33,912 nt of DNA from Planctomycetota bacterium (GTDB lineage: Bacteria; Planctomycetota; Phycisphaerae; Phycisphaerales; Phycisphaeraceae), in the NCBI GenBank assembly GCA_024276075.1, contig JAJRXX010000023.1:1-33912 (forward strand). The letters are read 5' to 3'. The position numbers and the translations under genes were made by a program. Position 1 is the first letter of the stretch; every line of letters begins with the position of its first letter. Below, one piece after another: positions 272 through 26,879 of this stretch. The notes under the pieces were generated by a model. It was not told the DNA's origin. It did not search any database and saw nothing but the letters and a program-made list of their open reading frames with translations.

Positions 272-331
272 CAGGTGTCTGTTACATCTGCGATCCAATC
301 CAGATGGAGAATATTGACGCCAGTTGCTCTA
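272..331 (+). repeat. Right-end fragment of a TA-flanked miniature inverted-repeat element
   Basis: These 60 bp align without gaps to the right-hand 60 bp of the complete element at 13851-13976, with about six mismatches by eye (roughly 90% identity). The fragment ends in the element's terminal inverted repeat, GCCAGTTGCTC followed by TA at 330-331. The left half of the element is missing and is replaced by DNA associated with the IS5-like transposase. The fragment sits 48 bp upstream of the RNase H-like gene and so forms part of its leader region. Confidence 0.75.
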
Positions 332-2971: not shown

Positions 2972-3044
2972 GCCCCCTTCGTCTAGAGGCCTAGGACATC
3001 GGATTCTCAGTCCGAGAACAGGGGTTCGACTCCCCTAGGGGGTA
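2972..3044 (+). tRNA. tRNA-Glu (anticodon CTC)
   Basis: A 73-nt cloverleaf. The acceptor stem pairs GCCCCCT (2972-2978) with AGGGGGT, followed by discriminator A at 3044. The anticodon arm is TCGGA/TCCGA around loop TTCTCAG, giving anticodon CTC at 3006-3008, which reads GAG (Glu). The T arm is AGGGG-TTCGACT-CCCCT. CCA is not encoded. The 3' half (3007 onwards) is also the end of the integrase reading frame on the opposite strand, which marks this tRNA as an integration site. Confidence 0.93.
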
Positions 3045-3669
3045 TCTTCTTGATATCGCAGTGCTTAGAATCAACATGAACCAACTCGAAATCACCTGAA
3101 TCTTCAGTGGGTTGCGAGGTTGGTTCCATCTCTTGGTTCGTGCCGTTTCGAGTGCCTTCTGCAATTTGCTGCGCCGCATTTTGCGCCACCTCGGCACCCA
3201 CGATTGGCTCGCCACGGACAGCACGCTCAAAATGCTCATCCGTGAGTTGTAGGTAGTGTTCAATGGCCACGGGTTGGCTGTTGCCGATCCACTTACAAAC
3301 AACGTGGATTGGGAATTGCTCAGCTAACTCCGTCTCGCGGGTAGACCGCAGGTTTTGGAACAGCTTCGGCCACGGCTGAAGCCCCGCTCGGTGGATGATC
3401 CGTTGAAGCTGTGTCCGCAGATTGGAGTTCCGTTGCCGGTAACGGTTGATGACATACTGGCTCCCCGGCTCGGCCTGCTCAAAGGCCTCCAGCAGCAGCG
3501 GCTTGAGTTCGGGGAACAGCGGAATCATTCGGCTGGCCTTACCCTCGACATGCTCGGTCTTGGGGCTTGGTACACGAATGCGGTTGTGTTCCCAATTCAC
3601 GTCCGCCCACGTCAGAGCCAAAACTTCCGATGGACACCTTAGCCCACCAAACCGCGCCAGCGAGAACTA
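3007..3669 (-). pseudogene. Tyrosine recombinase (phage-type integrase), N-terminally truncated, reading into tRNA-Glu
   Basis: Open for about 220 codons. From the cut end it reads '[24 protein letters not shown]' in two overlapping blocks, the catalytic Arg I region of tyrosine recombinases. It continues with '[17 protein letters not shown]' (Arg II region) and 'KWIGNSQ...[12 protein letters not shown]' (the WIG block and nucleophilic Tyr). The N-terminal arm- and core-binding domains are missing: an in-frame TAG at 3670-3672 marks the junction with the IS3-family element. The last residues, '[11 protein letters not shown]', are encoded by the antisense of the tRNA 3' half, a common result of att-site overlap. 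Without the DNA-binding N-terminus it is probably non-functional. Confidence 0.85.
3041..3215 (-). repeat. Direct repeat, left copy: integrase 3' end next to tRNA-Glu
   Basis: This 175-bp stretch aligns without gaps to 10327-10501, with about 14 mismatches counted by eye (about 92% identity) and the same orientation. It covers the 3' end of the integrase coding sequence and the first bases inside the tRNA end (GGTATCTTCTTGATATCGC). The repeat pair brackets the 7.3-kb accessory region. Confidence 0.85.
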
Positions 3670-10313: not shown

Positions 10314-10501
10314 CTATCGCGTAGGCGGTATCTTCTTGATATCGCAAGGCTTAGATCCAGCGCAAACCAACTCGAAACCACCTGAATCTTCAGAGGGTTG
10401 CGCGGTTGGTTCCATCTCTTGGTTCGTGCCGTTTCGAGTGCCTTCTGCAATTTGCTGCGCCGCATTTTGCGCCGCCTCGGCGCCCACGATTAGCTCGCCA
10501 C
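10314..10501 (-). pseudogene. Remnant of a second integrase (C-terminal tail only)
   Basis: The minus-strand frame reads '[19 protein letters not shown]', then 'NQEMEPTAQPSEDSGGFEL', and ends '[10 protein letters not shown]' before TAG (10314-10316). This is the same C-terminal tail as the integrase at the tRNA-Glu gene. The catalytic domain is absent. The tail differs only after 'KKIPP', where the left copy runs into the tRNA. It is a scar of a related element. Confidence 0.8.
10327..10501 (-). repeat. Direct repeat, right copy of the integrase 3' end
   Basis: Gap-free partner of 3041-3215 (about 92% identity by eye, same strand). Immediately to its left the sequence reads GCGTAGGCGGTA, where the tRNA-side copy reads CCCTAGGGGGTA. 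Only these few bases recall the tRNA end, so a clean att duplication is not demonstrated. Confidence 0.85.
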
Positions 10502-13438: not shown

Positions 13439-14149
13439 ATGAATATATTGCCGCCGATAATTCAATTTTATCTGCTGTACGTGGTGATTTTAGTCATCGT
13501 ATTTATCGGTTGCGAGCAGCGGGACCATGAGCCTATTGCGGCACAGCAACTAGCTGGGTAAGACCGCGAGGTGTCCGAGTCCGAGCTTCCGCGGATCGAT
13601 ATCTAGCGGGCCTGCGTGAGTTGATCGCTCAGAGCAGTTGTGAGGGTCGGGTACTGACAATCGAATTATGGGCCACGTGGTGCGGTCCCTGTGTCGCTCG
13701 TTTTGACGTGTTGCACACGGGATTGACCGATTTGGGCCCACGGGTACGGTTGGTTACAGTGATGCTGGACGTGCCGGGCGAGTACGAGGAGAAAGCGGTG
13801 GTGTTTTTGAGGCTCCACGACGCTTTGGCGGACGCATATCTGCTTGTATCTAGAGCAACTGGCGTCATTAATCTTCATTGACCGGGTGGCACGGCTTGCT
13901 TGCAAGCCGTGAAATACAGATGTTTGTTACACCTACGATCCAATCAAGATGGATAATATTGACGCCAGTTGCTCTAATGACGATGCGAGAATGGCTGTCG
14001 TCGAGGGGCTCGGTCAACGGTGGCGGGATTTAGTGGTTCCGGCTATTTTGATCTACGACAGGAACGGCGAATTGATAGAAGAGCTTATCGGTGACTTACA
14101 GACATCCAGCGAGATCACCGCTGGGGTGGTACAAATGCTTGCCCGGTGA
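13439..14149 (+). pseudogene. TlpA-like thioredoxin-fold lipoprotein gene, multiply disrupted
   Basis: ATG 13439 begins a lipoprotein-type signal ('YVVILVIVFIGCEQ', lipobox Cys) whose frame stops at TAA 13559-13561 and again at TAG 13604-13606. The next frame, open from before 13606, reads 'LRELIAQSSCEGRVLTIELWATWCGPCVARFD', a thioredoxin-fold start with the WCGPC redox site. A 124-bp miniature element then interrupts it at 13851. Downstream, a third frame reads 'NDDARMAVVEGLGQRWRDLVVPAILIYDRNGELIEE', including the cis-Pro 'VPAILIYD' of the fold. Removing the element restores the second-to-third frame join exactly. The first join needs one indel plus one nonsense reversion. Loss of this disulfide-exchange protein is inferred. 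Confidence 0.8.
13851..13976 (+). mobile_element. TA-flanked miniature inverted-repeat element (complete copy)
   Basis: Terminal inverted repeats TAGAGCAACTGGCGTCA (from 13851) and its reverse complement (ending 13976) are 17 bp and perfect, counting the flanking TA. TA is present at both outer ends, as expected for the TA target duplication of IS630/Tc1-mariner-type transposition. The interior has the palindrome CACGGCTTGC-TT-GCAAGCCGTG (13890-13911) and no ORF. The element interrupts the thioredoxin-fold gene. Confidence 0.85.
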
Positions 14150-25614: not shown

Positions 25615-26529
25615 ATGATCAGTGGCATGGCAAAGCTCAGTGGTTCTGGGTCGGGTGTTACGCAGCGGGCGGATGGCTCGAGCGGCGGCCCGGTCGGCCT
25701 GATTGCCGGCCAGGGGCGGCTACCGGTGCTGGTAGCGCAGGGGATCCGTGCTGCGGGTAGGCAGGTGGTGTGCGTCGGGTTGGCGGGGCAGTATGCGCCT
25801 CAACTGCCGGATTTGTGCGACCGGTTTACGCATGCTGGCATCGCTAGATTGGGCAAGTGGATCCGGGTATTGAGCCGAGGTGGTGTGCGTGAAGCGGTGA
25901 TGATCGGGCGTGTCCGTAAAGCGAAGATGTACGATCCCTTGCGGCTGATCCGTCAGCTCCCCGATCTGAGGGCGATCCGGTTGTGGTATCGTGTTTTGCG
26001 TCACGATCGGCGTAACTCGGCGGTGCTGGCGGCGGTGGCGGATGAACTGGCAAAGGGAGGTATCACCCTGATCGATTCGACCCAATACATCCGTGAATAC
26101 ATGGCCCAGGAGGGGGTTATGACGTCCAGACAGCCCACGCCCCAGCAATTGGCCGACGCTGGGTTCGGTTGGCCGTTGGTGGAGCGGCTGTGCGAACTGG
26201 ACATCGGCCAGGCGATCGCGGTGAAGGAGCGTGAAGTTGTGGCTGTCGAAGCCATTGAGGGCACCGATGCGATGATTCATCGAGCGGGCGAGCTTTGCCG
26301 GGTCGGGGGTTGGACACTTATCAAAACGGCTAACCCTAGTCAGGACATGCGGTTTGATGTACCTACGATCGGCCCGGACACGATTGATGCTCTGCATGAA
26401 TGCGGTGCGGGTTGCTTGGTGGTGGGGGCGGGCAGGGTGATCCTGGCGGACAAGCAGGAGTTGTTAGAACGGGCTGATCGGTACGGCATCAGCGTGGTGG
26501 GTTGGCCTTGGTCGGAAGATTTGAGCTAG
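25615..26529 (+). CDS. lpxI: UDP-2,3-diacylglucosamine pyrophosphatase LpxI
   Basis: 304 residues; ATG 25615 or ATG 25627. The DUF1009/LpxI architecture is clear: 'VGLIAGQGRLPVLVAQGIRAAGRQVVCVGL' (in parts) at about 27-55, 'GGVREAVMIGRVRK', then the C-terminal domain with 'DIGQAIAVKEREVVAVEAIEGTD', 'RAGELCR', 'LIKTANPSQDMRFDVPTIGPDTI' and 'GCLVVGAGRVILADK'. LpxI hydrolyses UDP-diacylglucosamine to lipid X in lipid A synthesis and replaces LpxH in many bacteria. With lptD in the same region it indicates real LPS. It is divergent from bioD, with 45 bp between starts. The stop TAG at 26527-26529 begins the heptamer TAGAGCA, which matches the tip of the miniature elements that follow. Confidence 0.93.
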   Translation: MISGMAKLSGSGSGVTQRADGSSGGPVGLIAGQGRLPVLVAQGIRAAGRQVVCVGLAGQYAPQLPDLCDRFTHAGIARLGKWIRVLSRGGVREAVMIGRVRKAKMYDPLRLIRQLPDLRAIRLWYRVLRHDRRNSAVLAAVADELAKGGITLIDSTQYIREYMAQEGVMTSRQPTPQQLADAGFGWPLVERLCELDIGQAIAVKEREVVAVEAIEGTDAMIHRAGELCRVGGWTLIKTANPSQDMRFDVPTIGPDTIDALHECGAGCLVVGAGRVILADKQELLERADRYGISVVGWPWSEDLS

Positions 26530-26542
26530 AGCAGAGGGCTAT

Positions 26543-26647
26543 TAGAGCAACTTGCGTAATTATTCTCCATCTCCCCAAGAAGAAGGCAGGTCAATGACCT
26601 GCCCTACTCCAGAACTGACATGGCGATTATTTATGCAAGGTGCTCTA
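26543..26647 (+). mobile_element. Miniature inverted-repeat element, copy A
   Basis: 105 bp including flanking TA on both sides. The left end TAGAGCAACTTGCGTAATT and the right end (TAGAGCACCTTGCATAAAT when reverse-complemented) are imperfect terminal repeats. The interior carries GGCAGGTCA-A-TGACCTGCC, a 9-bp hairpin. Non-coding. A further TAGAGCA heptamer 16 bp to the left (26527-26533) may be the tip of an older copy. Confidence 0.75.
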
Positions 26648-26654
26648 ATCTCCG

Positions 26655-26752
26655 TTAGTCGGGTGGCACGGCTTGCTTGCAAGCCGTGAGACACAGATAT
26701 GTGGCGCACCAGCGACCTACCGGGATGGCAAATATTTTTGCCACCTGCTCTG
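26655..26752 (+). mobile_element. Miniature element, copy B (left end missing)
   Basis: From 26660 it aligns along its length to 13884-13976: the same GGGTGGCACGGCTTGCTTGC palindrome, the ACAGAT block and GATGG before the right terminal repeat. The right end reads TTGCCACCTGCTCTGA, a diverged terminal repeat with TA changed to TG. The left terminal repeat is absent. It is an older, decayed copy. Confidence 0.65.
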
Positions 26753-26775
26753 AAATGGAATTTACTTTTTTGGGT

Positions 26776-26879
26776 TAGAGCAACTGGCGTGAATAATTGA
26801 TATATCGGTCTGCTGTAGGGCAGGACATTGTCCTGCCGTCTTCCCTGCGACGTGGAAAATAATTACGCAAGTGGCTCTA
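26776..26879 (+). mobile_element. Miniature inverted-repeat element, copy C
   Basis: 104 bp including TA at 26776-26777 and 26878-26879. The left end is TAGAGCAACTGGCGTGAATA; the right end in reverse complement is TAGAGCCACTTGCGTAATTA. The interior hairpin GGCAGGACA-T-TGTCCTGCC is the counterpart of that in copy A with different arm bases. Non-coding. Its right-hand TAG supplies the stop codon of the small minus-strand ORF that abuts it. Confidence 0.75.

Follow-up and report, generated by a model that had tools for sequence, protein, structure and literature searches.

A TA-flanked miniature element in a broken thioredoxin-fold gene belongs to a dispersed MITE family of likely IS630 origin

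The window analysed here, a whole stretch of 33,912 nucleotides from a member of the Phycisphaeraceae, contains a thioredoxin-fold gene whose reading frame is split by a short repeat with TA on both sides. The locus raises the question of whether this repeat is a mobile element, by what means it moved, and how far its insertion accounts for the state of the gene. The element is almost certainly a non-coding MITE that was mobilised in trans by a transposase of the IS630/Tc1-mariner type and landed in the thioredoxin-fold gene.

The element and the gene it splits

The preliminary description reported an element at 13851-13976 with TA on both sides and perfect ends of 17 bp (TA counted), and all of these features are present. 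The outermost 17 bp (TAGAGCAACTGGCGTCA) form an unbroken pairing within arms of 28 nt each (13851-13878 and 13949-13976), which are 86% complementary. The RNA fold of the element gives z = -8.0 on one strand and z = -8.6 on the other, which exceeds chance. With its TAs the element measures 126 bp, combining the short length and the terminal inverted repeats of a MITE; no ORF of at least 80 aa is present inside it, as 126 bp are too short to hold one. The features of the locus are as follows.

13439..13606, + strand: N-terminal remnant in a different frame, with a signal-like stretch that ends IGC and is followed by ...ELPRID; contains an in-frame TAA
13603..13851, + strand: left part of the split thioredoxin-fold gene, with a WCGPC motif, ending ...DAYLLVS
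13851..13852, no strand: left TA of the duplicated target (C-TA-A)
13853..13974, + strand: type-A MITE proper, 122 bp, GAGC...GCTC, with the duplicated TA on each side
13890..13911, no strand: central (inner) 10-bp palindrome, CACGGCTTGC-TT-GCAAGCCGTG
13975..13976, no strand: right TA of the target duplication
13979..14149, + strand: right part of the split gene, DDARMAVV...VQMLAR, then stop

The interrupted gene is located between an htrA-like gene and a methyltransferase gene. When 13852 is joined to 13977, which removes 13853-13976, a single open frame results (...DAYLLVS/NDDARM...), the right frame after the element reading DDARMAVVEGL. The frame is restored only locally, because the sequence upstream of the thioredoxin domain has two more lesions, an in-frame TAA at 13559-13561 and, near 13600, a change of frame. 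The earlier statements that deletion of 124 bp restores the frame and that insertion with TA duplication explains everything hold for the join and fail for the whole gene, where both upstream lesions are left over.

The thioredoxin domain carries its WCxxC motif as WCGPC. The PF00085 model scores above the cut-off on the orthologue from the same-family genome G012 and below it on the left part of the window gene, and the joined 140-aa protein has no family match at 1e-5. The N-terminal remnant is disconnected from the domain and shows a modest match to the N-termini of the orthologues (local scores 26-49, G012 best). Of the proposed TlpA-like lipoprotein identity, the thioredoxin-like part stands. 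The domain has no lipoprotein signal in its own frame, the signal-like stretch being in a different frame with a stop in between (lipobox judged by eye), and lipoprotein-like N-termini, also judged by eye, are carried by the orthologues. Taken by its current sequence, in which draft errors are possible, the gene is a pseudogene broken in three places.

The joined protein was searched against 61 genomes (its own, 36 of the same family and 24 of the same order), 49 of which gave some match at 0.001. Twelve matches are strong (E 2.2e-28 or better) and come from twelve different genomes of the same family, the best being the G012 orthologue with 56% identity; the remaining listed matches are weak thioredoxin matches at 8.6e-10 or worse. 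Within flanks of about 1.5 kb, the orthologues have a methyltransferase in 11/12 cases, an htrA match in 4/12 and a thiG match in 7/12. The gene is open and insert-free in 12/12 orthologues, none of which contains the 124 bp, and G012 carries the same MITE family at other loci, absent from this gene. Alignment across LLVS/NDDA, which had been proposed as a check, holds for all 12; within 10 residues on either side of the join it is gap-free in ten, and a single residue is missing in two. The expectation that relatives carry the gene unbroken and with only one TA at this position is borne out in its first half and not in its second, since TA is found at the exact insertion point in 0/12 orthologues and within a few bases in 2/12, the loop not being conserved. 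The empty site of the window copy is thus supported at the protein level and not at the TA level.

An even chance is given to the reading that the MITE entered an existing pseudogene as a neutral passenger and was not the cause of the loss, a distinction that concerns only the order of events. The in-frame stop and the frame change upstream of the thioredoxin domain favor a passenger, as does the small number of copies in ORFs of at least 200 codons (8/76 Y-TA-R sites, compared with 576/1035 control Y-TA-R sites). In contrast, both gene parts are still open as far as the element, and the joined product retains the 56% identity with its G012 orthologue given above, which points to young decay, and the other two lesions could postdate the insertion or be draft-assembly errors.

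Copies, targets and nested insertions

The genome of the window (G000) is a 2.88-Mb draft of 77 contigs with 96% completeness. The element occurs in at least 40 places in it at 94-100% identity (40 scored of 185 first-look candidates, all 40 of which qualify); 37 of these match over the full 126 bases and three over 124-125, and a 41st row in the copy list is a second, partial match within a copy already listed. Terminal sites with at most 3 mismatches number 209, compared with 0 for the reversed-pattern control. With 100 of the 209 sites listed, the copies read comprise 84 paired elements, an incomplete set in which old copies are under-counted because detection needs recognisable ends. At least 64 type-A copies (120-130 bp) are present among these at least 84 paired elements, and the 64 copies read differ from the 126-bp consensus at a median of 6 positions (range 0-28), the window copy at 1. 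The window copy is identical (126/126) to G000:C17:12654-12779, the flanks of which differ. Multiple dispersed near-identical copies, as in a MITE family, are therefore observed. Further MITEs lie in the window.

272..331, no strand: right part of a type-A copy, the left part being unrecognisable
26527..26753, + strand: second type-A copy, decayed, its internal TA holding a type-B MITE (26543-26647)
26776..26879, no strand: third MITE, type C, with the same ends and a different central palindrome (automatic sorting placed it with type B)

TA is present at both ends of 79/84 paired elements read, a count partly conditioned by the search pattern, which itself includes TA. The target is Y-TA-R, with Y at -1 in 62/65 and R at +1 in 65/65 sites among the elements read; the other 19 of the 84 were excluded as outer nest halves (2), long forms (4), elements with TA missing at one end (5) and nested or tandem elements (8).

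Empty and filled sites can be compared in three places, L032, L095 and window 26543-26647, where a type-A copy carries a type-B MITE in its internal TA and the TA is duplicated. In L032, 105 bp of type B are located inside an otherwise complete type A, and GTCAT-TA...TA-ATCTTC is found where the consensus reads GTCAT-TA-ATCTTC. In all three, the match to type A is highest when type B is removed and a single TA is left (118, 107 and 62 for L032, L095 and the window, respectively), compared with 113, 102 and 57 when no TA is kept and 115, 104 and 59 when two are kept. The type-B elements of L095 and the window are opposite in orientation to that of L032, so at least two independent insertions must have occurred; L095 and the window nest could share one.

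These nested copies are stronger evidence of TA duplication than the frame argument. In the frame-join test, the joined frame was longer than either shifted control at 7/33 loci, a share no higher than expected by chance, the window copy being among the seven (164 codons vs 125 and 145). The TA duplication on insertion that had been proposed for the split gene is thus confirmed independently by the three nests. The further proposal, that the repeat is or was mobile, agrees with the dispersed copies, the identical second copy, the Y-TA-R targets and the nested insertions with TA duplication, and mobility of the element is well supported on these sequence grounds.

Several other forms were observed. 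Four type-A forms of 231 bp (G000:C7:67087-67317, C49:31574-31804, C24:57458-57688 and C40:32693-32923) contain an additional 105 bp between repeats like TTACACC, and the 126-bp form could have arisen from the 231-bp form by deletion. Adjacent MITEs with a common TA are located at G000 C40:32693-33026, C24:57458-57791, C49:27020-27248 and C25:62456-62684, a side-by-side arrangement in which the end CTA-R is itself a target. In G012, a second MITE subfamily of 127 bp (L127-L156) consists of near-identical copies with the same central palindrome and a different body. The genomes G004, G010 and G045 carry the central palindrome alone (matches of ~30 bp), REP-like, without the remaining MITE. A scan of the collection for paired ends, from which the records of G000 itself were possibly excluded, returned two stretches, both from the MAG Phycisphaerae bacterium isolate 3_bin.56.

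Elsewhere in the window, a 185-bp direct repeat (3031-3215 and 10317-10501, 91% identical, 7.3 kb apart) was observed, the first copy of which starts within the 3´ end of a tRNA-Glu (2972-3044). The span between the repeats contains an SNF2-type helicase gene and is possibly an island at the tRNA.

Placement at the 3´ ends of genes

Placement relative to ORFs and 3´ flanks, including the 8/76 given above, was counted on sites with both Y and R only (62/65 in G000 and 14/17 in relatives), with control sites from the same flanks and with ORFs taken as stop-to-stop frames, not annotated genes. Outside ORFs, 34/68 sites lie at a 3´ end compared with 85/459 controls (odds ratio 4.4, p = 8e-8); for ORFs of at least 200 codons, 18 of these fall on the stop codon itself and 16 lie at most 60 bp beyond it. 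Of five such 3´-end ORFs tested, four (an MCP, a TPP enzyme, a secretin and a DHDPS-type gene) have a family match that reaches almost to the end.

In G000, 13/65 sites lie exactly in a stop codon compared with 24/717 control Y-TA-R sites (at least 200 codons; odds ratio 7.2, p = 2e-6), and 23/65 compared with 131/717 at a threshold of 80 codons (p = 0.002). The relatives show 5/17 such sites (four in G012, one in G011) vs 12/191 controls (p = 0.007), and 5/17 vs 31/191 at a threshold of 100 codons (p = 0.18); four of their 21 elements were excluded because TA is not at both ends, and one of the remaining 17 is shared with the 14-site set of the second G012 subfamily. No preference for stop codons over the 60 bp of 3´ flank that follow is seen, either at 200 codons or more (18:16 vs 40:45, p = 0.69) or at thresholds of 100 and 150 codons (p = 0.69 and 0.44, respectively). 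Stop-codon targeting as such was rejected on this comparison, and the 3´-end bias alone stands. As no preference over the adjacent flank is seen, the simplest reading is that selection removes the other sites.

It appears doubtful that the family is more than a parasite, kept as a mobile 3´-end module whose TA-G restores the stop and whose hairpin ends or protects the transcript. The ends read TA-G at both ends in 75/84 paired elements read, so that a TAA or TAG stop hit by an element becomes TAG, and the stop is restored as TAG in 13/13 stop-codon sites of G000. In the second G012 subfamily, which has TAT at one end, 2/14 sites lie in stops (at least 200 codons), in each case at the TAT end and in no case at the TAG end; this argues against a need for stop restoration.

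A candidate parent element and known systems

G012 contains an IS630-type element (L069:1015-2030) that is 1,016 bp long. Of the 15 positions compared at each end, 13 at one and 14 at the other agree with the MITE, and its flanks, C-TA and TA-A, give the target C-TA-A. Its ORF 1 matches HTH_Tnp_IS630 and its ORF 2 DDE_3, both above the cut-off; the two ORFs overlap in different frames, which suggests frameshifting. The only copy found in G000 (L064:1400-2415; 40 of 53 candidates scored) is 75% identical to the L069 element and looks broken: orfA is interrupted by a stop, orfB has another close to its end, and both element ends are decayed (12 of 15 positions match at each). The MITE thus has ends in common with IS630-type elements that carry a DDE_3 transposase (L069 and L064). 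Four other DDE_3 matches in G000 are partial or weak, and no flanking pair of MITE-type ends was found around them. In L067, a DDE_3 transposase fragment lies at the contig end beside an ORF that looks, by eye, like the beginning of a Cas9-type protein (MSRTVLGLDLGPNSIGWALVDE).

These matches make the IS630 family the likely source of the MITEs. An IS630/Tc1-mariner-type transposase would act in trans, binding the ~15-bp ends, excising the MITE and joining it to a Y-TA-R target with duplication of the TA. One copy would have inserted in the CTAA of the thioredoxin-fold lipoprotein gene between the htrA-like and methyltransferase genes, and further mutations would have destroyed the gene before or after this insertion. 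We infer that the transposase came from the L069/L064 lineage, that the MITEs moved by cut-and-paste and that the gene was lost through the other mutations.

Mobilisation by a different TA-targeting family is improbable. It would fit the finding that no intact transposase of this IS630 lineage with these ends was found in the G000 draft (77 contigs, 96% complete), from which an active copy could be missing; the Y-TA-R target argues against it, as do two IS630-type elements in which both ends match. That the 124 bp are an ancestral structural insert, or an intron-like or RNA-processed segment that never moved, can be dismissed with near certainty despite the strong hairpin and the exact local restoration of the frame, as they are missing from 12/12 orthologues and the repeat occupies dozens of unrelated sites, mostly outside long ORFs.

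The IS630 reading has parallels among known systems, which are compared by description. RUP of Streptococcus pneumoniae is described as an intergenic element of 107 bp in 108 copies with TA termini, whose ends resemble a resident IS630-family element and which derived from IS630-Spn1 (PMC2229807). The type-A MITE is like RUP, as described there, in its TA termini and IS630-like ends. Unlike RUP, the present system comprises several MITE types with different central palindromes and one set of ends, some of which are nested. Correia/NEMIS of Neisseria (~107-155 bp) likewise has inverted ends, TA termini and known filled and empty sites, and its ends of 24 bp are longer than the 17-bp perfect ends here (PMC2229807). 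ISY100 (Tc1/mariner/IS630) is described as moving by cut-and-paste in vitro with duplication of its TA target, and a reference listed there reports a preference of IS630 for TA in CTAG (PMC2170065); the target duplication is as here, whereas the MITE codes for nothing.

Literature searches returned no report on Phycisphaerae with miniature inverted repeats, and a narrow search on element insertion into stop codons gave only an unrelated one, neither of which is proof of absence in print. By this descriptive likeness, RUP with IS630-Spn1 would be the closest precedent, and the type-A MITE would be a new family of a known, RUP-like kind. A high-copy MITE system of IS630 type is thereby documented together with its filled sites and a likely parent IS, and its placement at 3´ ends and in stop codons suggests low-cost spread for a Y-TA-R-targeting element with TA-G ends.
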